Shown: in pieces, positions 1,521-41,726 of the stretch
How the letters are laid out: the number at the start of each line of letters is the position of its first letter
Numbering within the stretch: the stretch's first letter is position 1
Assembly: GCF_003575965.1 (NCBI RefSeq)
Contig: NZ_QWJJ01000021.1
Location: 1-54,453 of the forward strand
Direction of reading: 5' to 3'
DNA from: Pseudooceanicola sediminis
Lineage (GTDB): Bacteria > Pseudomonadota > Alphaproteobacteria > Rhodobacterales > Rhodobacteraceae
DNA: 54,453 nucleotides
Program-made: the position numbers and the translations under genes
Notes under the pieces: model-generated
What the model was told of the DNA's origin: nothing
Seen by the model: only the letters and a program-made list of their open reading frames with translations
Databases searched by the model: none

Positions 1521-1616
1521 GCGGGGCCTCCTTGGTCAGGGTCGTCCCGCAGGGTCGGGCAACAGGGTTAACAGGATATGGCGGCAGCGTGCGCCGGCTA
1601 CAGGAACCGTGGCATT

Positions 1617-1687: not shown

Positions 1688-3076
1688 TCATTGCGCAGGC
1701 TCCTGCATGGCTGCGGCCTCGATCTCGTCCCGGCGCCAGGTGCCCAGAAGCAGGCGTTTGAAAGCCGCATAGGTTTCATCGAAGGTGGCGCGACCACGGG
1801 CATAGGTTTCACGGTTGAAGTCGCGATAATCGGCCTCGTAGATGCCATTCACCCGCTCACCCGCCTGTCCGATCAGGGCAGTGAAATCCTGCCGCTCGGG
1901 GGTCAGGGTCCGCCCGAGGTAGGCCTGCATCAGCGCCGCCAGCTCGCCCTGCTGGGCGCCGTCGTAGCGGGTGATGACAGCACGCACCGCGTCCCATTCA
2001 AAGGCCAGTTCGGGCCGCCCGAGCGCGCGTGCGGCGATATTCTCGCCCTCCTCTATGCTGGCGAAGGTCGAATGCAGCATGTCGAAGAAACGCCCCGTGG
2101 AATCGAATTCGAGGAACGAAGCCCCCACCGGCACCAGCAGGATATCCGCCGCCGCCAGACCGTTGATCGTGAGATAGCCCAGGGCAGGGGGGGTATCGAG
2201 AAAGATCACGTCGTAATCGTCCAGCACACCGTCCTGTTCCAGCACTTCGGTCAGCGCATCCCAGAGCTTCCAGGTGCGGGCCTGCATCCGCCATACCGGG
2301 ATCTGGAATTCGGACCAGTAGAGGTTCAGCTGGGCACCGATCAGGTCGATATTGGGCCAGTGGGTTTTCTGGATCAGGTCCGGGGCCTTGACCGAAAGCG
2401 CTTCGTTCAGGGTGTCCTCCATCGGCAGGGGCGGATCGCCGCGTTCGATGCGGCGCTGGTTCTCGGTGCGCAGATGGGTGGCATAATGACGGGCCAGCAG
2501 GGGAAAGACGGTCTGCCATTCATCCTCGACCTGACCACCGAAGATCGAGGTCATGGACCCCTGGGAATCCAGATCGATCACCAGCACCTTGTAGCCATCA
2601 AGGGCGGCCGACATTGCCAGATGCGCAGCAGTCGACGTCTTGCCGACGCCCCCCTTGAAGTTCGCCACGGCGACCATCTTGGCAGGCAGACCTTCGGGGC
2701 GGTAGGGTTTGTATTCCTTCGCCTTCGATCCTTCGGCGGCGAAATGGGTGCGCAGGCGCAGCACCTCGTCGAGGGTGAACCATTTCGAGCCGCCCTCGGT
2801 TTCAGACTGGCCCTGAGGCAGATCCGGGTTGGCCTTCAGCACCCGGCGGAAATGCGGGGTGGCCACGGGGATCAGGTAGCGGGTAATCTCCCAGGTGGAG
2901 AACAGGCGCAGTGATTTGCGCCCCTGATCGTTCATCCCGCGCGAAGCGAGATCCGCCCGCCCGCGGGTGCAGGCCCGGGCCAGATCGCTGAAGCGTTCGG
3001 TCGAAAAGGGCGCATCGAGATCGCGCAGGGCGCGGTCCGGGTCGATGTTGAAATAGGGCGGGTGCTCGTCTTTCAT
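1688..3076 (-). CDS. parA: ParA-family partition ATPase
   Basis: This protein of about 462 residues is a Walker-type ATPase that positions plasmid copies with ParB. The deviant Walker A motif FKGGVGKTSTA is at about residues 140-150. LVIDLDSQGSM is the Walker A' segment, and DVIFLDTPPALGYLTING the Walker B region. The roughly 135 residues before the ATPase core include a MerR-like segment (WFTLDEVLRLR), as in type Ia ParA proteins that repress their own operon. A GTG at 3079 precedes the ATG at 3076; I chose the ATG because GAGG sits 5 bases before it and only 2 before the GTG. An inverted repeat at 3095-3119 is a candidate operator. Confidence 0.94.
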   Translation of the reverse strand: MKDEHPPYFNIDPDRALRDLDAPFSTERFSDLARACTRGRADLASRGMNDQGRKSLRLFSTWEITRYLIPVATPHFRRVLKANPDLPQGQSETEGGSKWFTLDEVLRLRTHFAAEGSKAKEYKPYRPEGLPAKMVAVANFKGGVGKTSTAAHLAMSAALDGYKVLVIDLDSQGSMTSIFGGQVEDEWQTVFPLLARHYATHLRTENQRRIERGDPPLPMEDTLNEALSVKAPDLIQKTHWPNIDLIGAQLNLYWSEFQIPVWRMQARTWKLWDALTEVLEQDGVLDDYDVIFLDTPPALGYLTINGLAAADILLVPVGASFLEFDSTGRFFDMLHSTFASIEEGENIAARALGRPELAFEWDAVRAVITRYDGAQQGELAALMQAYLGRTLTPERQDFTALIGQAGERVNGIYEADYRDFNRETYARGRATFDETYAAFKRLLLGTWRRDEIEAAAMQEPAQ

Positions 3077-3094
3077 CACTGCCTCATGTGCTGT

Positions 3095-3385: not shown

Positions 3386-3548
3386 AAGACTGGACCGGGC
3401 GCGCGGGCAGGATTAGGGTGGGTGTCAATGAAACCACGAAAAGGCCGGAGGTCCCGCGACAGGCATGGGGGGCGATCCGGACCGGGTTCAGGGTGTTGTC
3501 CGAAGGGGCGGCAGCCGAGGCGAAACGGGCAGCAGGACGGGCACAGGC

Positions 3549-4601
3549 ATGGCCGCAGCGATGAGCATGGGGGGCAGGACTCCCGGTGGAGCAGGGCAGG
3601 GTACCCTCTTGCCTGACCGCTATCCGCAGGTCGATTTCTTTATCTGCGATATCCTGGATGCCATCCCCAAGGATGACATGGCGACGATGGAGCATCCGGT
3701 GTTCAGCCTCTCGACGCGGCCGGACAGGCGCATCCTGTCCTATGAACATCGTGGCACCCAGATCGAGGTGACGCCGAGCGTCAAGGGCCTGGCGACGATC
3801 CACGACAAGGACATCCTGATCTTTTGCATCAGCCAGCTGATGGCGGCGATCAACGCCGGGCGTGCGGTCGGCCGCACCCTGACGCTGCGGGCGCATGATC
3901 TGCTGGTGGCGACCAATCGCGAAACCAGCGGTGATGCCTATCGTCGTCTGCGCGAGGCCTTCGAGCGTCTGGCGGGGACCCGCATCACCACCAATATCGT
4001 GACCGGCGACAAGGAAATCACCAGCGGCTTCGGCCTGATCGAGAGCTGGGAGATCGTGCGCAAGAGCCGGGGGGGGCGGATGATGAGCGTGTCGATCACG
4101 CTGAGCGATTGGCTGTTTCGGGCGGTGATGTCGAAATCGGTGCTGACGCTGAGCCGGGATTATTTCCGTCTGCGCAAACCGCTGGAGCGGCGGATCTACG
4201 AACTGGCGCGCAAGCATTGCGGACGTCAGGACAGCTGGCGCGTCTCGGTCGAGGTGCTGCTGAACAAGTCCGGCAGCGCCAGCCCGCGCCGGGTGTTCCG
4301 AAAGATGATCCGCGACATGATCGAAACCGACCATCTGCCTGATTACGAGATCGCCGAGGAACCGGGCGACATCATCCGCTTTTCCTCGCGCAACCGTCTG
4401 ACCGAAACGACAGGCCCCGAGGCGCCACCGCTGTCGGTCGCCGCGATGGCGCAGGCGCGCAGCCTGCTGCCCGGCGCGGACGTCTATGCGCTGGAGGCGG
4501 AATGGCGCGGCTTCTGGGCGGCGTCTGGCCGGCCAAGGCTGCGCTCGGCCGACGCCGCCTTTCTGGGCTTTGTGAAGAAGAAGGCTGCATCCGGGGCGTG
4601 A
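3549..4601 (+). CDS. repA: Plasmid replication initiator, RPA family (RepA-type)
   Basis: This protein of about 350 residues should bind the iterons and open the origin. The conserved core starts at YPQVDFFICDILDAIPKDDM and continues with MEHPVFSLSTRPD, GLATIHDKDILIFCISQL, LLVATNRETSGDAYRRLREA and YFRLRKPLERRIYELARKHC. These are hallmarks of the 'replication initiator protein A' family found on alphaproteobacterial plasmids. The start is uncertain: the frame is open upstream to 3465. I chose the ATG at 3549, with AGGA 11 bases before it, because homology begins only about 27 residues later. ATGs at 3561 and 3567 are also possible. The gene is divergent from parAB. Confidence 0.9.
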   Translation: MAAAMSMGGRTPGGAGQGTLLPDRYPQVDFFICDILDAIPKDDMATMEHPVFSLSTRPDRRILSYEHRGTQIEVTPSVKGLATIHDKDILIFCISQLMAAINAGRAVGRTLTLRAHDLLVATNRETSGDAYRRLREAFERLAGTRITTNIVTGDKEITSGFGLIESWEIVRKSRGGRMMSVSITLSDWLFRAVMSKSVLTLSRDYFRLRKPLERRIYELARKHCGRQDSWRVSVEVLLNKSGSASPRRVFRKMIRDMIETDHLPDYEIAEEPGDIIRFSSRNRLTETTGPEAPPLSVAAMAQARSLLPGADVYALEAEWRGFWAASGRPRLRSADAAFLGFVKKKAASGA

Positions 4602-6028: not shown

Positions 6029-7465
6029 ATGCCATTCACCCAAATTACCCCGGTCCTTCTTTGTGGCGGCTCCGGTACCCGGCTTTGGCCACTTTCCCGC
6101 AAGAGCTACCCGAAACAATTCGTTCCCCTGGTCGGAGAAGAGACGCTGTTTCAGGCGTCTGCAAAACGGCTGTCGGGCACAACCGAAACGCTGTCCTTTG
6201 GCGCGCCGATGGTGCTGACCAATGCCGATTTCCGTTTCATCGTCACCGAGCAGCTGGCCGGTGCCGGTATCGATCCGGGCGCGATTCTGATCGAGCCGGA
6301 AGGGCGCAACACGGCGCCCGCGATCCTGGCCGCGGCCCTGCGCCAGGCTGAAACGGACCCCGAAGCGATCATGCTGGTGGCCCCCTCGGATCACGTCGTG
6401 CCCGATGCGGCGGCCTTTCACGCCGCCGTGGCCCTGGGGCTGGAGGCGGTCGCCGCCGGTGACATGGTCACCTTCGGAATCACCCCGACACATGCCGAAA
6501 CCGCCTATGGCTATCTGGAGCTGTCGGAAAAATCCGACGGCCAGCCGGTCAAGCTGTCGCGCTTTGTGGAAAAACCCGACGCGGCGCGCGCGGCCGAAAT
6601 GCTGGCGGCTGGTACCTTCCTGTGGAACGCCGGGATCTTCCTGTTCCGCGCCAAGGACATGATCGCGGCCTTCGAGGCTCTGGCACCGGGTCTGCTGGCC
6701 CCGGTCAAGGCATCATTGGCCGAGGCCAAGACCGATCTCGGTTTCCTGCGCCTGTCCCCCGAACACTGGGGCGGTGCCGAAGACATCTCGATCGATTACG
6801 CGGTCATGGAAAAGGCGCCGAACCTGTCGGTCGTGCCCTTTGCCGAGGCCTGGTCGGACCTGGGCGGCTGGGATGCCGTCTGGCGCGAAACCGGCCCCGA
6901 CGAAAACGGCGTCGCCACCAGTGGCGAGGCCACGGCGATCGATTGTTCCAACACCTTGCTGCGGTCCGAGAGCGAACGCCTGGAAGTCGTCGGCATCGGG
7001 CTTGAGAACATCATGGTCATCGCGATGAACGACGCGGTTCTGGTGGCCGACATGACCCGTGCGCAGGACGTCAAGCTGGCGGTCTCGGCGCTCAAGGCCA
7101 AGGGCGCGGCGCAGGCCACGCATTTCCCGAAAGATCACCGCCCTTGGGGCTGGTTCGAGAGCCTTGTCGTGGGCGGGCGTTTCCAGGTGAAGCGCATCAT
7201 GGTCCATCCCGGTGCGGCGCTGAGCCTGCAATCGCATTTCCACCGGTCCGAACACTGGATCGTGGTGGAGGGTACCGCCCGCGTGACCATCGACGATGAG
7301 GTCAAACTGGTCACGGAAAACCAGTCGGTCTACCTGCCGCTTGGCTGTGTGCACCGCATGGAGAACCCCGGCAAGGTGCCGATGGTCCTGATCGAGGTCC
7401 AGACCGGCGCCTATGTCGGCGAGGATGACATCGTTCGTTACGAAGACGTCTATGCCCGAAGCTGA
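6029..7465 (+). CDS. manC: Mannose-1-phosphate guanylyltransferase / mannose-6-phosphate isomerase
   Basis: The 478-residue length is typical of the bifunctional type II enzyme. The N-terminal half makes GDP-mannose from mannose 1-phosphate and GTP: LLCGGSGTRLWPLSRKSYPKQF is the nucleotide-binding signature and FVEKPD the second one. The C-terminal cupin half carries the isomerase, with RPWGWFESL, KRIMVHPGAALSLQSHFHR and EHWIVVEGTA holding the metal-binding residues. No phosphomannomutase gene is in the window, so that step must be supplied elsewhere. The gene follows a 256-bp gap that probably holds its promoter, and a GC-rich hairpin separates it from ugd. Confidence 0.95.
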   Translation: MPFTQITPVLLCGGSGTRLWPLSRKSYPKQFVPLVGEETLFQASAKRLSGTTETLSFGAPMVLTNADFRFIVTEQLAGAGIDPGAILIEPEGRNTAPAILAAALRQAETDPEAIMLVAPSDHVVPDAAAFHAAVALGLEAVAAGDMVTFGITPTHAETAYGYLELSEKSDGQPVKLSRFVEKPDAARAAEMLAAGTFLWNAGIFLFRAKDMIAAFEALAPGLLAPVKASLAEAKTDLGFLRLSPEHWGGAEDISIDYAVMEKAPNLSVVPFAEAWSDLGGWDAVWRETGPDENGVATSGEATAIDCSNTLLRSESERLEVVGIGLENIMVIAMNDAVLVADMTRAQDVKLAVSALKAKGAAQATHFPKDHRPWGWFESLVVGGRFQVKRIMVHPGAALSLQSHFHRSEHWIVVEGTARVTIDDEVKLVTENQSVYLPLGCVHRMENPGKVPMVLIEVQTGAYVGEDDIVRYEDVYARS

Positions 7466-7531: not shown

Positions 7532-8698
7532 ATGAAAATAGCCGTCGCGGGAATCGGATACGTCGGTCTCTCGAATGCGGTTCTGCTGGCCCAGCACCAC
7601 GACGTCGTGGCGCTGGACCTGTCGGAACATCGGGTGGCGCTGGTCAATGCCGGCAAGAGCCCGATCGTGGACGCCGAGATCGAACATTATCTGGCCGAAA
7701 AGACCCTGAACCTGACCGCCACGACGGATCAGGTGCAGGCCTTTCAGGGGGCCGATTACGTCATCGTGTCGACCCCGACGAATTACGACGCGGTCACCAA
7801 CCATTTTGACACCAGTTCCGTCGAATCCGTGATCCGGGCGGTCAACCGGATCAACCCGGCCGCCACGATCGTCATCAAGTCGACGATCCCGGTGGGCTAC
7901 ACCGCCTCGCTGCGCGAGACGATGGGCTGCGACAATGTCATCTTCAGCCCGGAATTCCTGCGCGAGGGCAAGGCGCTCTATGACAACCTGCACCCCAGCC
8001 GGATCGTGGTGGGTGAGCGGTCGGCGCGCGCCGAGACCTTTGCGGCGCTGTTGCAGGAAGGGGCGCTGAAACAGGATATCCCGGTTATCTTCACCGGGTC
8101 CTCCGAGGCGGAGGCGATCAAGCTGTTCGCCAATACCTACCTTGCCATGCGCGTGGCCTATTTCAACGAACTCGACAGCTATGCGATGAGCAACGGGCTG
8201 AACAGCCGCGATGTCATCGAAGGGATCGGCCATGACCCCCGGATCGGCAGCCATTACAACAACCCCTCCTTCGGATATGGCGGGTATTGCCTGCCCAAGG
8301 ATACCAAGCAGCTGCTGGCCAATTACACCGAGGTGCCGCAGAACCTGATCCGCGCCATCGTCGATGCCAACCGCACCCGCAAGGATTTCATGGCCGAGCG
8401 GATCATCGCGCTGAAACCGAAGATCGTCGGTGTGCACCGGCTGGTGATGAAGACCGGCTCGGACAATTTCCGCGACAGTTCGATCCAGGGCATCATGAAG
8501 CGCATCAAGGCCAAGGGGATCGAGGTCATCGTCTACGAACCCGCGCTGGCCGAGGAGACCTTCTTCAATTCCCGTGTCGTGCGCGACCTGGCGGCGTTCA
8601 AGGCGGAATCGGATGTGATCCTGGCCAACCGGATGACGGCTGAGCTGAGCGACGTGGCCGACAAGATCTTTACCCGCGACCTGTTCGGCGCGGATTGA
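7532..8698 (+). CDS. ugd: UDP-glucose 6-dehydrogenase, short form
   Basis: This 388-residue enzyme oxidises UDP-glucose to UDP-glucuronate with two NAD+. The Rossmann motif [20 protein letters not shown] is at the N-terminus. [31 protein letters not shown] and [21 protein letters not shown] follow. The catalytic Cys is in [15 protein letters not shown]. The length equals that of the enterobacterial capsule/colanic acid enzyme rather than the longer TuaD type. GAGGAAG lies before the ATG. The gene implies a uronic acid, hence negative charge, in the polymer. A GDP-mannose dehydrogenase is less likely from the motif set and length. Confidence 0.92.
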
Positions 8699-8734: not shown

Positions 8735-8782
8735 GATGACCCAAGTATTCTATTGGCGGGCCCCGGCCCGAAGAGGATTTCC

Positions 8783-9961
8783 ATGACCGAGATCGCTGGC
8801 GAATTGGGTTCCGAAGCATCGGGTGCGCCGCGCCCGCAACTGGATGTCGGGATCGTGCATGACTGGATGCCCGGTCTGGCCGGGGGCGAGCGGGTGGTGC
8901 AGCAGATGGCAGCCACCTTTCCCAACAGCAAGATATACACGCTGTTCGATTTCCTGAGCGCGGCCGAGCGGGCCGAGGTCTCTGGCGGTGCACCGATCGA
9001 GGTCAGCCGGCTGAACACCTGGCCCGGCGTGCAGAAATACTATCGCTACCTGCTGCTGCAATGCACCCGCGCGATCGAGGAATTCAACGTGACCCATCAC
9101 GAGGTGGTGCTGAGCTCCTCGGCGGCGCTGGCCAAGGGGGTCATCACCTCGCCCGAGCAGCCCCATATCGCCTATATTCACAGCCCGGCCCGCTATGCCT
9201 GGGATCTGACGCACGAATATATCGATGAGCTGGGGGGCTTTGCCGCCGGGCTGAAGAAACGCGCCGCGCGCGAGATGATGCACCGGTTCCGCAAATGGGA
9301 CATGCGCACCGTGGCGCAGGTCGATCACTACGTCGCGAATTCCGAGTTCATCCGCAAGCGGATCTGGAAAACCTGGCGGCGCGAGGCCCAGGTCATCTAT
9401 CCCCCCGTGGACACCTCGGCCTTCGACCTCGGGACCGGCCCGCGCGAGGAGTTCTATTTCACCGCATCACGCATGGTGCCCTACAAGCGGATCCCGATGA
9501 TCGTCGCGGCCTTCAACGCCCGCCCGCATCTGAAACTGGTCGTCTCTGGCGATGGCCCGGAAATGGACAAGGTGCGCGCATTGGCCGGGGCGAATATCGA
9601 ATTGCTGGGCCATGTGCCTTTCGAGACCCTGCGCGAAAAGATGCAGAAGGCCCGTGCCTTCGTCTTTGCCGCCAAGGAAGATTTCGGCATCGTCCCGGTC
9701 GAGGCACAGGCCTGCGGCTGTCCGGTGATCGCGCTTGGCCATGGCGGGACCGCGGAAACGGTGCGCAACCTTGGCATGGATGATCCGACGGGCGTCTGGT
9801 TCGACCGCCAGACAGCCGAGGATCTGGGTGCAGCGGTCGACCGTTTCGAGGCCGAGCTTTCGGCCTTCAATGCCGAGGCCTGCCGCAACAATGCCCTCAG
9901 CTTTGGCGTGGCGCGGTTCCGCCGGGAGCTGGAGGACTGCGTGCGCGCGCAATTGGCCTGA
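8783..9961 (+). CDS. Glycosyltransferase family 4
   Basis: This 392-residue GT-B enzyme probably adds a sugar, perhaps mannose from GDP-mannose, to the lipid-linked repeat unit at the inner membrane. The N-terminal domain starts VGIVHDWMPGLAGGERVVQQ and contains IAYIHSPARYAWDLTHEYID. The C-terminal donor domain has FYFTASRMVPYKR and the E-x7-E type motif EDFGIVPVEAQACGCPVIA. The ATG at 8783 has AAGAGGA upstream; the frame extends slightly left without a better ribosome site. The pair with manC and ugd suggests one transcript. Its end is 18 bp from the converging spike-like genes. Substrate is an inference only. Confidence 0.88.
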   Translation: MTEIAGELGSEASGAPRPQLDVGIVHDWMPGLAGGERVVQQMAATFPNSKIYTLFDFLSAAERAEVSGGAPIEVSRLNTWPGVQKYYRYLLLQCTRAIEEFNVTHHEVVLSSSAALAKGVITSPEQPHIAYIHSPARYAWDLTHEYIDELGGFAAGLKKRAAREMMHRFRKWDMRTVAQVDHYVANSEFIRKRIWKTWRREAQVIYPPVDTSAFDLGTGPREEFYFTASRMVPYKRIPMIVAAFNARPHLKLVVSGDGPEMDKVRALAGANIELLGHVPFETLREKMQKARAFVFAAKEDFGIVPVEAQACGCPVIALGHGGTAETVRNLGMDDPTGVWFDRQTAEDLGAAVDRFEAELSAFNAEACRNNALSFGVARFRRELEDCVRAQLA

Positions 9962-9979: not shown

Positions 9980-10891
9980 CTAGCCCAGAACCCCGTCCGA
10001 GAAGACCTCGATCCGGCGCAGCTGGGCCTTGCCGAGGGGGGGCCACCAGCCCGGCGTGATCCCCTGGTCAGGCAGCACCCCGACAGACATGTCGCCATAG
10101 GTCAGACGTACATCATATGTCCCCGACAGAGTTTCGAGTGCGGCGATATCGGCGGCACGTGTGGCGGGCGCACCGCTGGTATGGATAGGGGAACTGGCGT
10201 TGCTGCCCTGTTCGACCTGAAGCCCCCAGAGGTGAATCGTGCCTGCGGCGGCCGGCATGGAATCTACCCGGTGCGGGTAAACCCGGATCTCGGTGCAGCC
10301 CGCAGGGACGGTGAAGACATGCGCGATGCGGGTCCAGCCATTGCCATGGATGTCCGTTTCATAGGCGGTGGTCGGGGTGGCGCTTGTGATGAAGCTCAGG
10401 GCCGTCTGGTTGTAGACCGCAAGGCGGTTCTCGCTCGCGGTGCCGAACTTGCGATAGTAGCTGAAGGTCAGCGTCTCGCCCGGGGTGGCGGGGATCAGGG
10501 CATAGAGGAAACCGTCGCTGCCCGAGACCATGGAGGCGTTCGTCGTGCCATCGGGCGAGGTCTCGGCCGAGGCCGAGATGGTCAGGCCGTTCGGAGATTG
10601 CCAGACAGCGGCCTGGGTCAGGTCATGGCTGTAGGGCAGTCGGTTGCTGGCGGCAGCTTCGATCAGCAGGCCCAGAATGACCGGAGAGAGAGGATCGCGG
10701 GCCAGGCGGGCGGTATCGGCACCGACCGTGGCAAACAGACCGGTGGCCCCGATCTGTGGCGCAGGCCCGGCCCGGGTCAGCGACAGCCCGGCGGGCAGGC
10801 TGCCGGTGGTGCAATCGAAGCTGGCCAGGGCGCGCGCTGCGGGTCGCCCCCCGGCCAGCGTTGCGATGGAATGATCGAGACCGATCATCAT
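9980..10891 (-). CDS. Phage/GTA head-spike fiber-like protein
   Basis: This 303-residue protein lacks a signal peptide. The middle part (GLLIEAAASNRLPYSHDLTQAAVWQ, then SASAETSPDGTTNASMVSGSDG) has the layout of a jelly-roll carbohydrate-binding domain common in phage head-spike and tail-fiber proteins. It ends with ...GTIHLWGLQVEQGSNASSPI, a typical closing strand. The small gene upstream overlaps it by ATGA and matches the spike-base family of the Rhodobacter capsulatus gene transfer agent; there the spike proteins bind the polysaccharide capsule. The pair sits antisense inside the polysaccharide operon. Binding of the polymer made here is an inference. A free lectin-like protein is the main alternative. 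Confidence 0.62.
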   Translation of the reverse strand: MMIGLDHSIATLAGGRPAARALASFDCTTGSLPAGLSLTRAGPAPQIGATGLFATVGADTARLARDPLSPVILGLLIEAAASNRLPYSHDLTQAAVWQSPNGLTISASAETSPDGTTNASMVSGSDGFLYALIPATPGETLTFSYYRKFGTASENRLAVYNQTALSFITSATPTTAYETDIHGNGWTRIAHVFTVPAGCTEIRVYPHRVDSMPAAAGTIHLWGLQVEQGSNASSPIHTSGAPATRAADIAALETLSGTYDVRLTYGDMSVGVLPDQGITPGWWPPLGKAQLRRIEVFSDGVLG

Positions 10892-11154
10892 GTCACCATG
10901 AAGGCATGGATACCCGAGGCGGTCGTGCCACTGGCCTGGACCTGGCGCACACCGACCGGCAGAATGGAAAAATCACCAACCTTGACCGACCGCAGCTCTC
11001 CCTTGACGGACATGAAGGCGATCGTTCCAGCGGTTTCGACAAAGAGAGCGACGGCGACCTGCGCCAGATCCGTGTCATCGGCAGGCGTCACCGGGACAAG
11101 ATCCTGGCTGGGTCCGTTGAGGGCCTGGGCGCGGCTTTCAAAGGGATTTCTCAC
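10888..11154 (-). CDS. Spike base protein, RCAP_Rcc01079-like
   Basis: This 88-residue protein begins RNPFESRAQALNGPSQDLVPVTPADDTDL and ends SVKVGDFSILPVGVRQVQASGTTASGIHAFMV. Both blocks match the small spike-base proteins known from the head of the Rhodobacter gene transfer agent and related phages. The GTG start at 11154 has a strong GAGGAGAG upstream. The stop overlaps the start of the spike-fiber-like gene (ATGA), so the two are translationally coupled. No other capsid or tail gene is nearby, so this is not a prophage remnant with structural genes. A helper role for a virion encoded elsewhere, or re-use in the cell envelope, are both possible. Confidence 0.66.
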   Translation of the reverse strand: MRNPFESRAQALNGPSQDLVPVTPADDTDLAQVAVALFVETAGTIAFMSVKGELRSVKVGDFSILPVGVRQVQASGTTASGIHAFMVT

Positions 11155-11533
11155 TTAACTCTCCTCTACATGGTCCGGGGGGCAAATCTGCACGGCCCGT
11201 GCGACGTTGCATTGCAGGAGGTTCTAGAAGTGAATGCTTAACCGTATCTTCTGCCACCGTGCGCCGCACCTGCGACGGCAGGGGCTGCAGGGGCGGGCCG
11301 GGCGACTGCTCAACTTACCGCCATGCGCAAGATCCCGCGACATTCGCCCTGATTTTTCGCCGGCTTCATCTCGACATGGCGGAGCGTGGGGAATAAGCCT
11401 TGAAGGTAATTGAACAGCTATACTTTACTCAGACGCATTGGCGTCATGGGGACATGAGATGATACTTCAGGCGCATCCATCCGATTTCCGCGCCGCCCGG
11501 ACCCGAATTTTCAGAAACCCGAGATAATATCAA
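11155..11533. promoter_or_regulatory. Divergent intergenic region between spike pair and pyruvyl transferase gene
   Basis: This 379-bp spacer separates divergent genes and must hold promoters for both. A palindrome GACGC-ATTG-GCGTC lies at 11432-11445, about 90 bp before the pyruvyl transferase start. No credible gene was found in it. Confidence 0.45.
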
Positions 11534-12841
11534 ATGAAACGCATAGTTAGTGCCTTGCTCCCCCCAGCATTGCGGAACCGTATTCATGCCTACAGGGCCA
11601 GGAAAAACTGGGACGAGGTGCTGAACAACTGGGCGCAGGCCGCCGCGCAGGGCAAGGCCGCCACCCTGTCGCAAAAGCGCGGACGGATCCTGATTTTCCC
11701 CAGTGATCTGGACGCCATCACAGGCGCCCTGGGCGACGATGCGATGATCACCGCCACCGTGGACATGTTCCGCACCGTGCATCCCGATCTGGCCGTCGAC
11801 ATGTTCTGCAGCGCGGGCGCCAGCGAGATCGTGCGCGCCAAGGGGTTCACTCCGGTGATCCTGCCCCCGATGAAAGATTTTCCCCAGGCCATGGCGGACC
11901 GTTTCAAGGGCGCGCCCTATGACGCGATGATCGCCCTGGGGGCGGATATCATGGATGGCTATTACAGTGTCACCTCGACCGCCCGCATCCTGATCGCCGC
12001 CGACCTCGCCGTGCGCAACGGCATTCCCGCGACGATCCTGGGCTGCAGCTTCAACGACAAGCCCGCCCCTGCGCTGGCCGCGGTCTATGGACGGCTCGAC
12101 AAACGGGTCGATCTGAACATGCGGGACGAGATTTCCTTTGACCGGGTCAGGGCCTTCGCCCCCGTCACACCCCGTCTCGTGGCCGATTCCGCCTTTACCC
12201 TGGCCCCCGGCCATGCCGACCCCGAGGCCGTGGCCTGGGTCGAAGCGCAGCGCGCGGCGCAGCGCAGCGTGGTCGGCGTGAATGTGCACCCGATGCTGAT
12301 CAAGGGCGCGACCGAGGCGGACGTGGAAAAGATCGTCGCCGCCTCCGTGACCGCGCTGCGGGATGTTTCCGGCAGGCAGCCGGTGTCCTGGCTGATGCTG
12401 CCGCATGATTATCGCGGTTCGGATGGTGATGCGACCTGCCTGCGCCCGATCTTCGACCGCCTGAAGGCTGCGGGCCTGACCAACCTGCACTACCTGGATG
12501 GCGAACACCGTGCGGCCGACCTGAAGGCTGTGGCGGGGCATCTGGACGGGGTGATCACGGGGCGGATGCACCTGGCGATTGCCGCACTTGGGAAAGGCGT
12601 GCCGGTGCTGAGCCTGACCTATCAGGACAAGTTCGAAGGGCTCTACCGCCATTTCGGCCTGCCGCGCTCGCTGCTGCTGCCTCCGGCGATTTTCGACACA
12701 CCCGACGCGCTGGCCAGCAACATGGAAGACTTTGTGACCGCGCTGCCGGACCTGACCGGGATCGTTGCCGAGGCAAAGCCCAAGGTGCTTGATCTGGCCC
12801 GGGAAAACTACACGCGCTATACTGCGCAGGAAACCGTCTGA
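11534..12841 (+). CDS. Polysaccharide pyruvyl transferase family protein
   Basis: This 435-residue protein matches the family that places ketal-linked pyruvate from phosphoenolpyruvate on polymer sugars, adding negative charge. ALGADIMDGYYS lies early. GVNVHPMLIKGATEAD and WLMLPHDYRGSDGD mark the two-domain fold, and GVITGRMHLAIAALGKGVPVLSLTYQDKFEGLYRHFG is the strongly conserved C-terminal signature. Residues 1-50 are a basic extension. Only a weak ribosome site precedes the ATG. It starts a plus-strand run continuing with a glycosyltransferase, sulfotransferase, FrhB-like protein and flippase. Some family members use other substrates, so the acceptor is unknown. Confidence 0.85.
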   Translation: MKRIVSALLPPALRNRIHAYRARKNWDEVLNNWAQAAAQGKAATLSQKRGRILIFPSDLDAITGALGDDAMITATVDMFRTVHPDLAVDMFCSAGASEIVRAKGFTPVILPPMKDFPQAMADRFKGAPYDAMIALGADIMDGYYSVTSTARILIAADLAVRNGIPATILGCSFNDKPAPALAAVYGRLDKRVDLNMRDEISFDRVRAFAPVTPRLVADSAFTLAPGHADPEAVAWVEAQRAAQRSVVGVNVHPMLIKGATEADVEKIVAASVTALRDVSGRQPVSWLMLPHDYRGSDGDATCLRPIFDRLKAAGLTNLHYLDGEHRAADLKAVAGHLDGVITGRMHLAIAALGKGVPVLSLTYQDKFEGLYRHFGLPRSLLLPPAIFDTPDALASNMEDFVTALPDLTGIVAEAKPKVLDLARENYTRYTAQETV

Positions 12842-12869
12842 CGATGTGCTGCAGAGACGGATGCCCCGC

Positions 12870-14099
12870 ATGAAAATCGTCCTCGTCACCAGCGTTCCCG
12901 CCTTTCCGACCACGGCCGGCAACCGCAGCCGGATTCGGGAACTGGCCCGGGCCATCACCGACCTGGGGCATGAGCTGACCTTCGTGTCGCTGCCCTCCGA
13001 ACTGGACCAGGGCGATCCTGCAGCCCATGCGGCGGCCTTCGGTGCGGATAATTACGTGCAGATCGACAATGGCGGTGCCTTTGGCCACAAGCTCTATCGC
13101 GCCCGCCGCAAGGTGCGCCTCGGGGTGCGCAAGGCGCTGCGCCTGATGGGCTTCGAGACCGGGCATTATTCCGCGCTTGATCAGACCTGGAGCGATCGCT
13201 GGCAGGCCCGCCTGAAAGAGGTCGGGCGGGATGCCGATGCCGTGATCGTCGAATATGTCTTCAACTCCCGCGTCTTCGAGGCCTTTCCGAAAGCCGCACG
13301 GCGGCTGCTGGATACCCATGACGCCTTTGGCGACCGACATAAATCCTACCTCGCCCAGGGCATGAAGATCGGTTACTGGATCTCGCTGCGCCCCGAGGAT
13401 GAAAACGCCGGGTTCCGGCGGGCCGATGCGATCCTGGCCATTCAGGAAGAAGAGGCCGAGCGCTTTAGAAAGCAGCTCGCATCGGACGGGCAGGGCGGTT
13501 CCCAGGGGAATGGGCGCGGGAATGGACCCGAGATCGACATCGTCAGCCATTTCCTGAACCTCGGGGATGCCATCGAGGACTTCAGCAATGGCCACACGGC
13601 AATGTTCCTGGCCTCCAACAACCCCTCCAACCGCCAGGCCATCCGCGATTTCATCGACAACGTCCTGCCGTTGGTGGTGCAAGAGATCCCTGATTTCGAT
13701 CTGGCGCTGGTCGGGTCGATCTGCAGCCAGGTCCCGGACATGGCAAACGTGACCAAGCTGGGGCGGGTCGATGACCTCAAGGATGCTTTCCAGCGCTCGC
13801 CGCTGTCGGTGAACCCGATGCTGGTTGGCACCGGCATCAACATCAAGCTACTGGATGCAATGGCCGCAGGTGTGCCGACAATCTCGACAGAGACCGGGGT
13901 GCGCGGCCTGCCCGAGAGCTATCGCAAGGGCGTCGTCATTGTCGGCGATCGCGATTATGCGGCCTTTGCCGCCGAGATCGTGCGCTTTGCCCGCGACGAG
14001 GCATTGCGCCGGGAAATGGGCGCCGCCGCCTATGCCGAGGCCGAGCGTTGGAACGCAGAGCAGGCCAGTGCCCTCAGCCGGTGCCTTTCGGGCGCCTGA
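12870..14099 (+). CDS. Glycosyltransferase family 4
   Basis: The product has about 409 residues and a GT-B fold. It opens MKIVLVTSVPAFPTTAGNRSR, with the glycine-containing acceptor loop, and RLLDTHDAFGDRHK lies in the first domain. LVGTGINIKLLDAMAAGVPTIS in the second domain is the donor-binding region typical of family 4. The ATG at 12870 gives the canonical start; ATG 12861 in the same frame is possible. The gene begins 28 bp after the pyruvyl transferase stop and is probably co-transcribed with it. It should act on the repeat unit at the cytoplasmic membrane. The linkage cannot be predicted. Confidence 0.85.
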   Translation: MKIVLVTSVPAFPTTAGNRSRIRELARAITDLGHELTFVSLPSELDQGDPAAHAAAFGADNYVQIDNGGAFGHKLYRARRKVRLGVRKALRLMGFETGHYSALDQTWSDRWQARLKEVGRDADAVIVEYVFNSRVFEAFPKAARRLLDTHDAFGDRHKSYLAQGMKIGYWISLRPEDENAGFRRADAILAIQEEEAERFRKQLASDGQGGSQGNGRGNGPEIDIVSHFLNLGDAIEDFSNGHTAMFLASNNPSNRQAIRDFIDNVLPLVVQEIPDFDLALVGSICSQVPDMANVTKLGRVDDLKDAFQRSPLSVNPMLVGTGINIKLLDAMAAGVPTISTETGVRGLPESYRKGVVIVGDRDYAAFAAEIVRFARDEALRREMGAAAYAEAERWNAEQASALSRCLSGA

Positions 14100-14130: not shown

Positions 14131-14171
14131 ACATGATACGGATGACATCACGAATACAGGGGGTGAAGGGT

Positions 14172-14969
14172 ATGCAAACGACCTCGACACATGCCTACGA
14201 AGACCAGTTTTCGCCTGAGTACGACATCGCTGATGCCCCCGCCCCCGAGCGGACGATCATCATCGCCTCGACACCGCGTTCGGGCAGTCACATGCTGGGC
14301 CACGCGATGACGGCGACCGATGCCATGGGGCGCCCGTTTGAATATTCGCCGCCGCAGAACGCCGAGGAATGGCAGCGCCGCCTGGGTCAGCCCGACATGA
14401 AATCGGCCCTGCGCGAAATCATGAAGCGGCGCACGACCCGGAACGGCGTCTTTGCGGCCAAACTTCACTATGAACACCTGTCCCTCTTCGGGGGCCTGCA
14501 GGCGGCGCTGGATTTTTTCCCGAATCCCGTGGTGGTGCGTGTGGTGCGCGCCGATCTGCTGCGTCAGGCAATCTCTCTCTGCGTGGCACGTCAGACCGGC
14601 GTCTGGATCAGCTCGATGACGGGCAACGGCAAGACCCCCGTCTATGATTACGAGGCGATCCGGGCCGAGGTCGAACGGGTGGCCCTGCACAATGCCCTCT
14701 GGGACAGCGAGCTGGCTGCGGCCGGTGTGCCCGCCCTGACGGTGGAATTCGAAGCGTCGCGCACGGATACGGCGAATGTGCTGCGGCGGATCGCGGATTT
14801 CGCGGGGATCGACCTCGCCGAGGCCGCCATTCCCGACCAGCCGCGCACCCGCAAGCAATCCGGCGGTCTGGCCGAGAAATGGATCGAGGCCTACCGCGAG
14901 GATCTGAACCGGACAAAGGGCCGTTCTGGGGTGCGGATCATGCGCAACGTCCTGCACAAGCTGAAGTAG
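14172..14969 (+). CDS. Stf0-type sulfotransferase
   Basis: This protein of about 265 residues should move sulfate from PAPS to a sugar. RTIIIASTPRSGSHMLGHAM is the 5'-phosphosulfate loop. VVVRVVRADLLRQAISLCVARQT corresponds to the 3'-phosphate region, and the end resembles the mycobacterial trehalose sulfotransferase Stf0 family. I chose ATG 14172, preceded by AGGGGG, over ATG 14133. The gene lies inside the polysaccharide operon between a glycosyltransferase and an FrhB-like gene. Together with the adenylylsulfate kinase at the left edge it points to sulfated polymer. A second, unrelated sulfotransferase lies at 23740. The acceptor is unknown. Confidence 0.83.
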   Translation: MQTTSTHAYEDQFSPEYDIADAPAPERTIIIASTPRSGSHMLGHAMTATDAMGRPFEYSPPQNAEEWQRRLGQPDMKSALREIMKRRTTRNGVFAAKLHYEHLSLFGGLQAALDFFPNPVVVRVVRADLLRQAISLCVARQTGVWISSMTGNGKTPVYDYEAIRAEVERVALHNALWDSELAAAGVPALTVEFEASRTDTANVLRRIADFAGIDLAEAAIPDQPRTRKQSGGLAEKWIEAYREDLNRTKGRSGVRIMRNVLHKLK

Positions 14970-15028
14970 GCCCACCCGGGCCTCCGGGCCGGGACACCCA
15001 AGTTGGCAAGTTGGAAAGCGAGTTGAGC

Positions 15029-16420
15029 GTGGATATCAAGGATGTCGTTTCAGGTGGGTTCTGTGTGGGCTGTGGCGGTTGCGCTGCCGTGGCCAGCCAG
15101 AGCATCAAGATGCAGCGCAGCGATGAACAGACCTACCTGCCGCAGCTTGCCGATGCCGCGCCCGAGGTGCTGGAGGCGGCAAACCGGGTCTGTCCGTTCT
15201 CGGATGCCTCGCGGGACGAAACGGACCTCGCCCAGGATCTCTACGAGGGGCGCGTGGATCACCGGGCAGAGAGCGCGGGTTATTACCAGACGCTTCATGC
15301 AGGCCATATCAACGACGATGCGCAGGTTCTGGGCAGCAGTTCCGGCGGGCTGACCAGCTGGTTCCTGCTGCGGCTGCTGGAACAGGGCCGCATCGATGGG
15401 GTGATCCATGTCGGCAGCACCGGTACGCAGCAACCGCTCTATGATTTCACGGTCTCCGAGAGCGCGGACGAGGTGCTGGGCCGGCGCAAATCCCAGTATT
15501 ACGCCGTGCAGTTTTCCGACGTCATCGCCCGGATCCGGGGCAATGGTCGCCGCTACGCCTTTGTCGGTGTTCCCTGTTTCGTGAAATCGATGCGGGCATT
15601 GGCCAATGAGGATGCAGTGCTAAAGTCACAGCTGGTCTGGCATGTCGGGCTGGTCTGCGGCCACATGAAAAGCGGCGCGTTTTCACAAGCGATGGCCGAT
15701 CAGCTGGGCGTCCCGCCCCAGCAGGTTGGTGCGGTGGATTTCCGCGTGAAAGACCCCGAAGCCCCGGCAAACGCCTATTCCTTCGGCGTGCGCGCAGCGG
15801 GGCAGGAGGCCTGGAAAACCCGGATGTCGCGCACCCTGTTGGGGGGGAACTGGGGGCATGCGCTGTTCCAGCTGAAGGCCTGCGATTATTGCGACGACAT
15901 CTTTGCCGAAACGGCGGACATCTGTTTTGGGGATGCCTGGTTGCCCCGCTTCGAGGCGAACTGGCGCGGTACCAACGTCGTGCTCTGCCGCACGACCGAG
16001 GCGGCGGAAATCTTTGCCGAAGCGCAAGACGACATCACGCTCGAGACCATCGACCTCGCCGATCTGGAAAAGACCCAGGCCGGCAATTTCCGCCATCGTC
16101 GCGAAGGCCTGTCCTACCGGCTGGAACTGGATGTCGCAGCTGGTCGGATGGTGCCGAAAAAGCGCGTCGCTCCGGGGCAGTTTACCCTGCCGGCAGACCG
16201 CAAGAAGATCGTCGAGATCCGGCGCGACATGGCGGCGCGCAGCCATACCGCCTGGCTGGAGGCCCGCAAGAGCGGAGACATGCCTGCCTTTTACCGCGAG
16301 ATGCAGGGCTATGCCGACCGAATGCAGGCGATTTATCGCCGCGCCGAAAAAGGCGGCCTGAAGAACCTGGTGAAGCGTGTGATACGCAAACTCGTCCGCA
16401 CCCTACGCCCTGCTGCATAG
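15029..16420 (+). CDS. FrhB/FdhB-like iron-sulfur protein of polysaccharide clusters
   Basis: The product of about 463 residues has the N- and C-terminal domains named after the F420 hydrogenase/dehydrogenase beta subunit. CVGCGGCAAV near the N-terminus and CDYCDDIFAETADICFGDAW in the middle are the cysteine motifs for Fe-S clusters. FVGVPCFVKSMRAL and HVGLVCGH match the C-terminal domain. Relatives recur in exopolysaccharide clusters beside pyruvyl transferases, but their reaction is not established. The likely start is the GTG at 15029, giving MDIKDVVSGGFC; TTG codons at 15011 and 15023 are alternatives. The basic last 30 residues may bind the membrane. F420 use is not implied. Confidence 0.8.
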   Translation: MDIKDVVSGGFCVGCGGCAAVASQSIKMQRSDEQTYLPQLADAAPEVLEAANRVCPFSDASRDETDLAQDLYEGRVDHRAESAGYYQTLHAGHINDDAQVLGSSSGGLTSWFLLRLLEQGRIDGVIHVGSTGTQQPLYDFTVSESADEVLGRRKSQYYAVQFSDVIARIRGNGRRYAFVGVPCFVKSMRALANEDAVLKSQLVWHVGLVCGHMKSGAFSQAMADQLGVPPQQVGAVDFRVKDPEAPANAYSFGVRAAGQEAWKTRMSRTLLGGNWGHALFQLKACDYCDDIFAETADICFGDAWLPRFEANWRGTNVVLCRTTEAAEIFAEAQDDITLETIDLADLEKTQAGNFRHRREGLSYRLELDVAAGRMVPKKRVAPGQFTLPADRKKIVEIRRDMAARSHTAWLEARKSGDMPAFYREMQGYADRMQAIYRRAEKGGLKNLVKRVIRKLVRTLRPAA

Positions 16421-20002: not shown

Positions 20003-20156
20003 GTTGCATCGCTTTCTTCGGAAATGAGAAACATGCCCCCTCCGCCCGCGGGGCCGGGCAGAGGGAAGCAAGCGATGAAACCCTGCTCTATCTTTCTTAA
20101 GTGGGTCCTGCGGGACCGTGACGGTGGATCTGCTCAGCTCGCGACTTCAGGTGCGT

Positions 20157-27006: not shown

Positions 27007-27705
27007 TCAGTGCCCGGTCTGGTTGACGACCGCCCCGCCCGTCTTGCACAGGATGACGACATCCTGAACAAACGACGCCGAGGTCAGGTATTCCACGTCC
27101 ATCTGGACACGTTCGTCATAGCTGACCTCGTTGCGACCCGACACCTGCCACAGCCCGGTCAGACCGGGTTTGAGGGACAGGTAGGCGGTGCGCAGCTCGC
27201 CATAGCGGCGGATCTCGTCCCGCACGACCGGACGCGGCCCGACAAAGCTCATCTCGCCCTTCAGCACGTTCCAGATCTGGGGCAGCTCATCCAGGCTGGT
27301 CGCCCGCAGCACCGCACCCAGCTTGGTGATCCGCGGATCGTTCGTCAGTTTCTGGCTTTCACGCCATTCCACCAACGCCTCGGGGTTCTCTGCCAGGTGC
27401 TGTTTCAGCCGCGCCTCGGAATCGATGACCATGGAGCGGATCTTCCAGCACAGGAACGGCTTGCCGTTGCGCCCGACCCGACGGTGCCCGAAGAAACCGG
27501 GACCGCCATCACGGCAGGTAATGGCCCAGAGAACTGCGATGATCGGCAGCAGCAGGGGCAGTAGAAGAAAGGCGAGAACCAGATCGAAGACCCGTTTCCC
27601 GTAGCGAATATAAAACGTCTGGCTTTCCCGGCGAATCGTGGTCCTTCGACCACGAGAGGAAACCGCCGTTGAACCTGCAATATTACCTAAATCAAAAGCT
27701 TTCAC
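27007..27705 (-). CDS. Initiating undecaprenyl-phosphate sugar-1-phosphate transferase (ExoY-like)
   Basis: This protein of about 232 residues starts the repeat unit by moving a sugar phosphate to undecaprenyl phosphate. One hydrophobic segment (VFDLVLAFLLLPLLLPIIAVL) precedes the catalytic domain with FLCWKIRSMV, DELPQIWNVLKGEMSFVGPR and LKPGLTGLWQVSGRNEVSYDERV. The length fits the ExoY-like short form without the PglC/WbaP N-terminal extension. An ATG at 27726 exists, but AAGGGAG stands 7 bases before a GTG at 27705 and nothing comparable precedes the ATG, so I chose the GTG. It heads the minus-strand operon reading toward 18 kb. Galactose or glucose is the usual first sugar. Confidence 0.88.
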   Translation of the reverse strand: MKAFDLGNIAGSTAVSSRGRRTTIRRESQTFYIRYGKRVFDLVLAFLLLPLLLPIIAVLWAITCRDGGPGFFGHRRVGRNGKPFLCWKIRSMVIDSEARLKQHLAENPEALVEWRESQKLTNDPRITKLGAVLRATSLDELPQIWNVLKGEMSFVGPRPVVRDEIRRYGELRTAYLSLKPGLTGLWQVSGRNEVSYDERVQMDVEYLTSASFVQDVVILCKTGGAVVNQTGH

Positions 27706-28018
27706 AGATGAACTCCCTTGCGGCATCTATCAAAACGCATGGATTTCCATAGTTTTCAAAATTTATGTGGCCCGAAACTCTCAGGACTGACCGCTTGTGT
27801 ACAGATCTTATTGTGCATTGGGTAGCCTGTCGAGATGCACACGCAGCAATGCCGCCCGGCAGAAAGGCAGAAAAACAGGGGATAAGGCGCCTCGTTCCAG
27901 GATCGCCAGGGCGCACCCCGGGCCGGATCCGGCTGTCGCCTCTTTCGGAAGAGATCCGATAAGATACTGTTTTAAATGTCCTAAAATATTGTCTGCGGCG
28001 TGTTTTGGGGGCCACATC

Positions 28019-28736: not shown

Positions 28737-30902
28737 ATGAACCGTTCCTATACCAACTTCTCTTCCTCGGATCAGCAGAAGGCCCCTGCGGGTGCCACCG
28801 ACGAGGTCATCGACATCAGTGCCCTGCTGGGTACGCTCTGGCGGGGGAAATGGCTGATCGCGCTCGTGACCCTGATCGCGCTGATCATCGGCGGATATTA
28901 TGCCTATGGTGTTGCCACACCGCTCTTTCGGGCGACGGCTGTCGTCATTCTCGATTCCCGCCAGGAAAAGGTGGTCGATTTCGAAAGCGTCGTCGGCGGC
29001 CTGGGGCGCGATGCCACCACCATCAATTCCGAGGTGGAGGTTCTGCAAAGCCGCAACCTGCTGGAGAAGGTGGTCAAGACGCTGGACCTGACCTCGGACC
29101 CCGAATTCAATCCCTCGCTGCGCAGCCCGCCCCTCAAGGCGCAGATCCGCAACTGGATCAAGCGCACCGCCAACCGCCTGTTCACCGGCGAACCGACCCC
29201 CGCCAGCGCCCCGACGGCGACAAGCGAGGCCCTGCGCCAGCAGCGTATCCTGGACAGCACCGTCAACCAGCTGCTGCGCACGCTGACCATCAGCACCGTC
29301 CCCCAGAGTGTCGTCTTCGAGATCACGGTCGAAACCGAAGAGGCACAGAAGTCCGCCAGGATCGCGGATACCCTGGTCGATCAGTACATCATGAACCAGC
29401 TCGACGTGAAATTCGCCGCGACCGAGCAGGCCACCAGCTGGCTGTCCAAGCGTGTCGCCGAATTGCAGACCGAGCTTGAAGGCGCGGAGGCCCGCGTCAA
29501 GAACTTCAACGCCAATACCGAGCTGGTCAGCACCGAAACCCTTATCGGGCTGGAACGCCAGATCAAGGAATTGCGCGTGCGCATCGACAATGCCACGGCG
29601 GAACGCGACCGCTCGGCCACCTCGCTGGCCCGGCTGCAGGCCGCGAAAACCCCACAGGAACAGGCCGAACTGGCCAATGATGCCACGCTGAACCGGATCC
29701 TGCTGCAGATCGATCAGCCCGGCAGCCGCGAAACCTTTCAACAGCGCTACGACCAGCTGGTCGCCCGCGCCCAGGTCGAGGCCGATCGGGCCGAGAACCA
29801 GTTGGCCGCGCTGGAGAAATCCAGCACCGAACTGGCCAGCCAGATCGACCGGCAGAACACCGACCTGATCACCTTGCAGCAGCTGACCCGCGAGGCCGAG
29901 GCCAGCCGGCTGCTGTACGAATATTTCCTGACCCGCCTGAAGGAGACATCGGCCCAGGAAGGCACCCAGCAGGCAGACAGTCGCGTGCTGTCCAATGCGG
30001 TCATTCCGGGGGGGCCCTCGGCGCCGCGCAAATCGCTGGTGCTGATCATGTCGGCCTTCTTCGGCGTGCTGCTGGGCGCCGGGATCGTGCTGCTGCGCGA
30101 GCTGCGCCAGAACACCTTCCGCACCGCCCGCGACCTGGAACAGACCACCGGCCTGTCCGTGATGGGCCAGCTGCCGCTGCTGCCCATGCGCCACCGCAAG
30201 GATGTCATCAAGTACCTGGTCGACAAGCCGACCTCGGCCGCCGCCGAAGCGGTGCGCAACCTGCGCACCTCGGTCCTGCTGTCCAATATCGATCACCCCC
30301 CGCAGGTCATCGCCACCAGTTCCTCGACCCCAGGCGAGGGCAAGACCACCGTGTCGATGGCCCTGGCCCACAACTTCATCGGCCTGGGCAAGAAGGTGCT
30401 GCTGATCGAGGGCGATATCCGCCGCCGCGTCTTCAACCAGTACCTCGATACCGAGGCCGAGGAAGGGCTGGTCGCCGTGCTGACCGGCAAGCGCAAGCTG
30501 GAAGACGTTGTCTTGAAAGACAACAGGGTAGGCGCCGACGTGCTGATCGGGGAACAGACCGCGACGAACGCCGCGGACCTGTTTTCGTCGGAAAGCTTCG
30601 TGCGGTTCCTCAAGGACGCCCGCACCCGGTACGACACGATCATCATCGACACGCCGCCGGTGCTGGTGGTCCCCGATGCCCGCGTGATCGCCCAGCATGT
30701 CGACGCGATGCTGTTCGTCGTGGCCTGGGACCGCACCCAGAAGGGCCAGGTCGAAATCGCGCTGCAGATGTTCGAAAGCGCCAACCAGCCGATTGCCGGG
30801 CTGGTGCTGAACCAGATCAGCCCGAAGGGCATGAAACGCTATGGATATGGCGGCAAATACGGCGCCTATGCCAATTACGGGCGCAAGTATTACGTCGACT
30901 GA
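28737..30902 (+). CDS. Polysaccharide co-polymerase and tyrosine autokinase (Wzc/ExoP-like)
   Basis: This 721-residue inner-membrane protein controls chain length and export. A Wzz domain starts near residue 25, with the first transmembrane helix WLIALVTLIALIIGGYYAYGV. A long periplasmic coiled-coil region (about 190-410) follows, and LVLIMSAFFGVLLGAGIVLL is the second helix. The BY-kinase domain has Walker A STPGEGKTTVS near residue 530, Walker A' LLIEGDIRR and Walker B IIIDTPPVLVV. The tail RYGYGGKYGAYANYGRKYYVD has seven tyrosines, the autophosphorylation cluster. No strong ribosome site is visible. A terminator hairpin follows the gene. It works with Wza (31731) and Wzy (21235). Confidence 0.95.
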   Translation: MNRSYTNFSSSDQQKAPAGATDEVIDISALLGTLWRGKWLIALVTLIALIIGGYYAYGVATPLFRATAVVILDSRQEKVVDFESVVGGLGRDATTINSEVEVLQSRNLLEKVVKTLDLTSDPEFNPSLRSPPLKAQIRNWIKRTANRLFTGEPTPASAPTATSEALRQQRILDSTVNQLLRTLTISTVPQSVVFEITVETEEAQKSARIADTLVDQYIMNQLDVKFAATEQATSWLSKRVAELQTELEGAEARVKNFNANTELVSTETLIGLERQIKELRVRIDNATAERDRSATSLARLQAAKTPQEQAELANDATLNRILLQIDQPGSRETFQQRYDQLVARAQVEADRAENQLAALEKSSTELASQIDRQNTDLITLQQLTREAEASRLLYEYFLTRLKETSAQEGTQQADSRVLSNAVIPGGPSAPRKSLVLIMSAFFGVLLGAGIVLLRELRQNTFRTARDLEQTTGLSVMGQLPLLPMRHRKDVIKYLVDKPTSAAAEAVRNLRTSVLLSNIDHPPQVIATSSSTPGEGKTTVSMALAHNFIGLGKKVLLIEGDIRRRVFNQYLDTEAEEGLVAVLTGKRKLEDVVLKDNRVGADVLIGEQTATNAADLFSSESFVRFLKDARTRYDTIIIDTPPVLVVPDARVIAQHVDAMLFVVAWDRTQKGQVEIALQMFESANQPIAGLVLNQISPKGMKRYGYGGKYGAYANYGRKYYVD

Positions 30903-41713: not shown

Positions 41714-41726
41714 GGACGCCGCCGAC

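Follow-up and report, generated by a model that had tools for sequence, protein, structure and literature searches.

A head-spike gene pair of gene transfer agent type inside the polysaccharide locus of a plasmid-like contig from Pseudooceanicola sediminis

Introduction

Production of a gene transfer agent (GTA) means the death of the producer cell, and is therefore thought to need kin targeting. Co-regulated polysaccharide receptors could provide such targeting of GTAs, as has been argued (PMC10883770). In Rhodobacter capsulatus, the source of the closest described system (RcGTA), the head-spike genes rcc01079 and rcc01080 (GhsA/GhsB) adjoin, and are co-regulated with, the capsule genes rcc01081-01086, and the spike fibre binds cells whose capsule is encoded beside the fibre gene (PMC10218006). 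In the RcGTA structure the spike base sits on capsid vertices as a pentamer, within which the fibre's first residues, alternately hydrophobic and small, form a star (PMC7296036). The promoters of the spike, tail fibre and lysis genes have been described as containing putative CtrA half-sites, two of the three also putative GafA sites (PMC9638019). Here we examine a spike-type gene pair from P. sediminis and ask how its surroundings and its promoter compare with those of relatives across the family.

Results

A spike gene pair among polysaccharide genes

The window, by which we mean the whole stretch of DNA analysed (54,453 bases), is contig C19 of the assembly in its entirety. It carries two spike-type genes in tandem:

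10888..11154, minus strand: head-spike base (GhsA/Rcc01079 family), 88 aa, GTG start (NF048002, PDB 6tb9)
9980..10891, minus strand: head-spike fibre (GhsB/Rcc01080 family), 303 aa, ATG start (NF048003, Rcc01080)

Both genes are intact and are joined by a 4-base overlap. The base protein matches the NCBIfam spike_base model NF048002 at 95.2 bits (cut-off 28) and, by sequence, the solved structure of Rcc01079 (PDB 6tb9, E 2.5e-7); the fibre protein matches GTA_spike_fiber NF048003 at 121.6 bits (cut-off 36) and the solved structure of Rcc01080 (E 1.5e-11), and a Pfam search gave no match for either. These matches support an assignment of the pair to the GTA-type head spikes. A previous sequence-only reading of this DNA had described two overlapping minus-strand genes at exactly these coordinates, a GTG-started 88-residue protein and a 303-residue fiber-like one, and had proposed the former as a spike base and the latter as a head spike; the profile searches bear this out, placing both in those families rather than in unrelated ones. 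The G+C content of the pair (0.61 and 0.67, against 0.64 for the whole window) is not distinctive.

The fibre was modelled as an all-beta protein with moderate to low confidence (mean pLDDT 65.8, pTM 0.51). By fold the model comes closest to a baseplate/tail fibre protein from a Pseudomonas phage (E 3.7e-5, TM 0.29), and the likeness of this model to carbohydrate-binding modules (E 0.02 and worse) is weak and at most suggestive. For the base, we considered Glu12, a residue that in RcGTA takes part, together with the capsid, in holding a cation, as an indicator of the fitting capsid. It was dropped because the position is variable in the spike-base family: the window's base has Asn there, and Glu occurs in only 15 of 132 aligned bases.

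The contig itself appears plasmid-like, since it encodes an RPA replication initiator, a ParA and a ParB-like protein with a weak ParB_N match (under its cut-off), and much of what surrounds the pair is a polysaccharide locus:

1688..3079, minus strand: plasmid ParA (PF13614; TIGR03453 at 198.9 bits, under its cut-off of 348)
3465..4601, plus strand: plasmid replication initiator, RPA (PF10134, 3e-101)
6029..7465, plus strand: ManC-type guanylyltransferase/isomerase (PF01050, PF00483)
7532..8698, plus strand: nucleotide-sugar dehydrogenase (PF03721, PF00984)
8753..9961, plus strand: GT4 glycosyltransferase, adjoining the fibre gene (PF00534, 1.2e-22)
11534..12841, plus strand: polysaccharide pyruvyl transferase, adjoining the base gene (PF04230, 1.9e-17)
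12765..14099, plus strand: glycosyltransferase group 1 (PF13692)
14133..14969, plus strand: Stf0-type sulfotransferase (PF09037, 2.9e-22)
14879..16420, plus strand: FrhB/FdhB-like protein of the polysaccharide locus (PF04432, 1.3e-27)
27007..27726, minus strand: initiating sugar transferase (PF02397, 9.9e-61)
28737..30902, plus strand: Wzc-like chain-length regulator and autokinase (PF02706, PF13807, PF13614)
31731..33101, minus strand: Wza-like polysaccharide export protein (PF02563, PF22461)
33935..36034, minus strand: YjbH exopolysaccharide protein (PF06082, 5.4e-169)

Sulfotransferases and acyltransferases are also found among the genes of the locus. The pair splits the plus-strand polysaccharide genes, with the GT4 and pyruvyl transferase genes on its two flanks and no adjacent phage structural genes, much as the earlier reading had pictured it when it spoke of a plasmid carrying both polysaccharide genes and spikes. 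Among the window proteins scanned, none matched a phage gene at the significance threshold.

Elsewhere in the window, a right-handed beta-helix/pectate-lyase-like protein is encoded in the polysaccharide locus at 17978-20071 (minus strand); it may act on the polymer as a lyase or epimerase. Positions 37042-46644 (plus strand) encode an RTX-repeat protein, a SapC-family protein and type I secretion components (OEP, ABC transporter, HlyD), and 48446-53656 (minus strand) holds a 1736-aa reading frame with no Pfam match at E 1e-5. An identical stretch is found at the ends of this contig (54406-54444) and of contig C45 (C45:250790-250828), so that a repeat may form the end of the plasmid contig.

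Linkage of spike genes to polysaccharide loci across the family

The spike base model matches 110 of 296 family genomes. Of 129 spike places listed, 120 were taken together with flanks of up to 8.5 kb and compared with 40 places drawn at random from the same contigs; the other nine are the host genome's own two places, which received an examination of their own, and seven matches that were weak, partial or second ones. Polysaccharide markers were 20 protein groups used as iterated profiles. At least two polysaccharide genes lay within 8.5 kb at 66/120 spike places but only 2/40 controls (Fisher p 3e-9), and at least one marker at 75/120 against 4/40, leaving 45/120 spike places with no marker. 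An earlier tblastn pass had given at least two polysaccharide matches at 56/120 spike places and 1/40 controls. The reference proteins came from spike-linked plasmid loci and from the window, and could thus favour spike places in these counts; PF02397, which was not derived from spike loci, is free of this bias, and among the 150 matches listed it occurs within 20 kb of 28/91 spike places in 80 genomes, where 1.8 would be expected. Random placement of spike genes relative to polysaccharide loci, the outcome that would have spoken against the sequence-only reading, is not what these figures show.

At the marker-less spike places we scanned 129 of 135 neighbour proteins (five long proteins and one at an edge were left out). 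Four match nucleotide-sugar epimerases and a few match phage terminases, and no family dominates the 129. On plasmids, tblastn found relatives of the window's base in 10 of 72,556 records; by annotation, eight of these ten base genes lie among polysaccharide genes, one does so partly (rfb genes) and one does not.

The GTA megatron gene is unmatched in 3/110 genomes with a spike base and in 23/186 other genomes (p 0.005), although 6 of the 26 genomes counted as lacking it do so by gaps in the match list. Since the remaining 163 of the 186 genomes without a spike base do match the megatron, spikes are optional in GTA genomes.

Conserved bases and exchanged fibres

At 74/120 spike places the base has a partner gene in tandem (gap between -25 and 45, product of 150 aa or more). 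Hydrophobic residues alternate at the N-terminus (4 or 5 of 5) in 37/74 partners, against 60/485 control genes (p 2e-12); the window fibre scores 4 of 5, which for a single gene does not decide the matter, since those 60 control genes also reach 4 or more. Adding the plasmid pairs and the host's own pairs to the 74 gave 84 base-fibre pairs. Among them, 96% of directed pairs have matching bases and 3% have fibres that match along more than 60% of their length; of the 421 directed pairs whose bases share 60% identity or more, 58 have matching fibres. By these alignments, fibre bodies have been swapped between spike loci while the bases stayed constant. The closest relative of the window fibre among the partners collected is the fibre encoded on contig C45 of the same genome (42% over 218 aa).

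In Limimaricola (L010 10261-11619) the base gene is followed by one annotated as a sialate O-acetylesterase, and in Cereibacter (L013 1430-3334) by one annotated as an SGNH/GDSL hydrolase. With such annotations, some spike bodies may be enzymes.

A composite promoter upstream of spike bases

We compared 131 sequences upstream of spike bases, a set that includes the window, L046 (contig C45) and ten plasmid loci and omits L157. A palindrome around CG-NN-CG is enriched in them, and alignment on this palindrome brought out a composite element: CG-NN-CG, 16 nt, TTAA, 12 nt, A. The window has such an element ahead of the base gene:

11225..11263, minus strand: composite promoter core, CGCACG, 16 nt, TTAA, 12 nt, A (pattern match and score)

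Allowing at most one mismatch, TTAA-N7-TTAA occurs in 19.8% of the 131 spike upstreams and 3.4% of 530 control upstreams, and CGNNCG-N16-TTA[AC] in 26/131 against 4/526. Other spacings from 8 to 27 between CGNNCG and TTA[AC] account for at most 3 spike upstreams each, except for 7 at a spacing of 17. In fivefold cross-validation, 90/131 held-out spike upstreams scored above the 99th percentile of controls, compared with 1/131 in a null run with the same seed, a relevant comparison in that the seed had been picked after viewing all spike upstreams; 74 of the 90 matches start between -140 and -80. The upstream of the window's pair is one of 32 held-out upstreams that outscore every control, with a held-out score of 24.0; its score under the full composite model is 25.6, against a best of 23.0 among 526 control upstreams. 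With the model trained on all sequences, the promoter is present at 56/66 polysaccharide-linked places and 25/44 marker-less places. Of the three spike genomes without a megatron match, two have the promoter (L092, 23.5; L140, 23.3) and the third lacks it (L121, 7.9). Other motif seeds gave weaker signals, and LexA-type and LuxR-type sites showed no clear enrichment upstream of spikes. The composite promoter was found in 0/77 viral spike upstreams, from contigs that are poorer in G+C (48%).

In the 4.44-Mb host genome a strict version of the pattern has 6 matches and a reversed control pattern 17, so it is not over-represented, and it is the place of the matches rather than their number that counts. 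The spike pair, the plasmid ParB-like gene and, at close distance, the GTA portal gene are each preceded by one match, and contig C6 has another; the last two fall in the stretch that C19 and C45 have in common at their ends.

GTA portal and lysis genes with the same kind of promoter sequence

A sequence model (R1) was built from 60 spike promoters, the window's excluded. Among its 12 matches in the host genome at E <= 10, the third and fourth precede the GTA lysis operon (GH108 endolysin and PF11351 GTA_holin_3TM; E 0.0053) and the GTA portal gene (E 0.021), and the fifth, a weak one, the window's own spike pair (E 0.16). The best two lie upstream of the plasmid ParB-like gene (window 1547-1598, minus strand; E 0.0019) and some 0.2 kb ahead of a BrnA-like gene (PF14384) on contig C6 (L316 1501-1552, C6:145841-145892; E 0.0025), which shows that known GTA genes are not alone in having this promoter. 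The first of these may tie plasmid partition to the GTA programme or may have arisen by chance, and the BrnA-antitoxin-like gene is a possible further gene of that programme.

The same model was run on two sets of 20 genomes, spikeless with a megatron and spike-bearing, both hand-picked among the megatron matches listed. The spikeless genomes gave 66 R1 matches at E <= 0.1. Eight of these, in eight genomes, fall 8.38-8.53 kb upstream of the megatron on the same strand (about 0.006 expected), and nine, in nine genomes, fall 0.67-0.72 kb upstream of the GTA holin (about 0.011 expected); the portal or the lysis place is marked in 14/20 genomes. At the same threshold the spike-bearing genomes have a marked spike promoter in 11, a marked portal place in 3 and a marked lysis place in 3, this last count being taken over the 16 of 67 R1 matches on the holin's contig, with one there, far from the holin, omitted. 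Because R1 was trained on spike promoters alone, these positions tie spike, portal and lysis genes together and support a control of the spike pair in common with the GTA portal and lysis genes, as read from promoter sequences.

One further R1 match in the spike-bearing genomes lies near g1. Upstream of g1 the picture is less regular: in the 19 regions available (a twentieth had no terminase match), five have the palindrome between -329 and -353 relative to the start of the terminase gene, with no fixed spacing to the -35 box, and some of these palindromes look like terminators of the upstream gene. The composite model nevertheless scores high in some g1 regions (L215, 30.1; L221, 21.7). The 752 bases upstream of the host's own terminase contain no such palindrome.

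The GTA cluster and the second spike pair of the host

In line with the chromosomal gene transfer agent presumed by the sequence-only reading, the genome has an RcGTA-like cluster, and GTA genes share the type of promoter found before the spike pair. The cluster lies on contig C35 and has a megatron (1870.5 bits) and a distal tail protein by NCBIfam, a capsid protein that matches Rcc01687 at 614.7 bits and a portal gene of PF04860. The host genome has only two spike bases, that of the window and one on C45. The C45 pair has a fibre of its own (NF048003, 134.7 bits) and sits in a row of reading frames, one of 1095 aa, that we read as a prophage tail module; two large frames beside the pair matched no NCBIfam model. 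Its upstream scores -6.0 and is without the composite promoter. Since the second base thus lies in prophage-like frames, no spike set other than the plasmid pair was found outside DNA of that kind.

A second megatron is encoded on C45, about 50 kb from the spike pair. The contig has two prophage-like stretches (L046, L048), one with this megatron and one with its own spike pair, both of which are, in our own reading, prophages.

Discussion

Our comparisons suggest that the two genes supply the chromosomal GTA with head spikes from a plasmid, lodged as they are inside the plasmid's polysaccharide locus, and we would put the probability of this reading at roughly 0.6. The spike family is not GTA-specific: its bases are also encoded by R. 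capsulatus and Paracoccus phages (23 records), by viral contigs (127 relatives, of which 80 were kept) and by the C45 stretch. The pair might accordingly be a captured fragment of a phage receptor-binding module, with no role at present or a role for phage only, and the kinship of its fibre to the prophage-like fibre of the same genome fits such an origin. Against this stand the two intact and overlapping genes, the lack of any significant phage gene among the window proteins scanned, and the promoter, which is common to the GTA portal and lysis genes and is missing from 77 of 77 viral spike upstreams, albeit on G+C-poorer contigs; we consider a phage remnant quite unlikely. The promoter also bears on whether the plasmid spikes decorate the resident C45 prophage instead of the GTA. 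The capsid of that prophage presumably accepts spike bases, given that it has a spike pair of its own with a related fibre, but that pair lacks the composite promoter and the plasmid pair has the one of the GTA genes, which makes such a role improbable. More improbable still is a cell-surface or secreted lectin system that belongs to the polysaccharide locus and forms no part of a virion: the weak fold likeness to carbohydrate-binding modules in a low-confidence model would agree with it, but the base family is that of the capsid-vertex protein of RcGTA (PMC7296036), and the promoter again points to GTA lysis and portal genes.

A different kind of doubt concerns the linkage itself, which could be a by-product if polysaccharide loci are recombination hotspots where GTA spikes happen to settle, so that a fibre would have no specificity for the polymer of its own locus. 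The speed of fibre exchange (matches in 3% of pairs, as opposed to 96% for bases), the 45 of 120 spike places without a marker and the optional nature of spikes in GTA genomes all speak for such a process. The fibre of R. capsulatus, however, binds cells with the capsule that adjoining genes encode (PMC10218006), and on balance we regard a purely incidental linkage as unlikely.

For the preferred reading, a plasmid-borne spike set of the chromosomal GTA, we can offer a rough scheme. Once the GTA programme is switched on, CtrA and a GTA activator, probably GafA, would act at its promoters, and the composite promoter at 11225-11263 (minus strand) would fire along with those of the GTA portal and lysis genes; GafA is a natural candidate for the protein that reads the CG-NN-CG palindrome. 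Pentamers of the base would then occupy the capsid vertices of the GTA particles, and the hydrophobic N-terminus of the fibre would plug into the base. By analogy with R. capsulatus, we infer that the all-beta body of the fibre would grip the polymer made by its own locus on recipient cells.

A further step is more tentative, and we hold it to be possible rather than probable. The plasmid could be a receptor-plus-ligand cassette that re-addresses the chromosomal GTA, bringing both a polymer and, under the GTA switch, the spikes for it, such that DNA would go preferentially to carriers of the same plasmid. Polysaccharide loci across the family might then serve as address cassettes open to exchange, in which the socket stays the same and the plugs vary, and CG-NN-CG might be a so far unmapped GafA operator. 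What lends these proposals their interest is that a plasmid-capable polymer-plus-spike locus wired to the GTA by a definable promoter makes the kin-targeting idea testable gene by gene, and that the composite promoter is a concrete candidate site for the GTA activator.

Compared with known systems, the window pair has most in common with GhsA/GhsB of RcGTA. The sequence-only reading had taken a coupled polymer-plus-spike cassette to be undescribed, which does not hold: the linkage of spike and capsule genes in R. capsulatus is already in print (PMC10218006). For linkage across the family and for the composite promoter, we found no description in the literature searched, which largely lacks subscription papers. 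Rhodobacter phage and viral-contig spike modules use the same protein families as the window pair, but unlike it the viral loci have neither the composite promoter (0/77) nor a polysaccharide marker (0/80, by tblastn only). A further group is formed by the Rhodobacterales plasmids with a spike base, for example Tritonibacter mobilis p4, Marinovum algicola pMaD9 and that of Sulfitobacter sp. W002, one of the ten plasmids being from the Hyphomicrobiales (Acuticoccus); most of them share the polysaccharide surroundings, and they differ in that the genes after the base vary. With RcGTA the window pair shares both the base and fibre families and the adjacent polysaccharide biosynthesis genes. It differs in lying on a plasmid-like contig and in an orientation opposite to that of the neighbouring polysaccharide genes, and its promoter architecture, common to portal and lysis genes, comes from our comparison, whereas the R. 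capsulatus side comes from print. What appears to be new, on the genomes compared here, is that the linkage seen in R. capsulatus recurs across the family and that most spike genes have a composite promoter in common.
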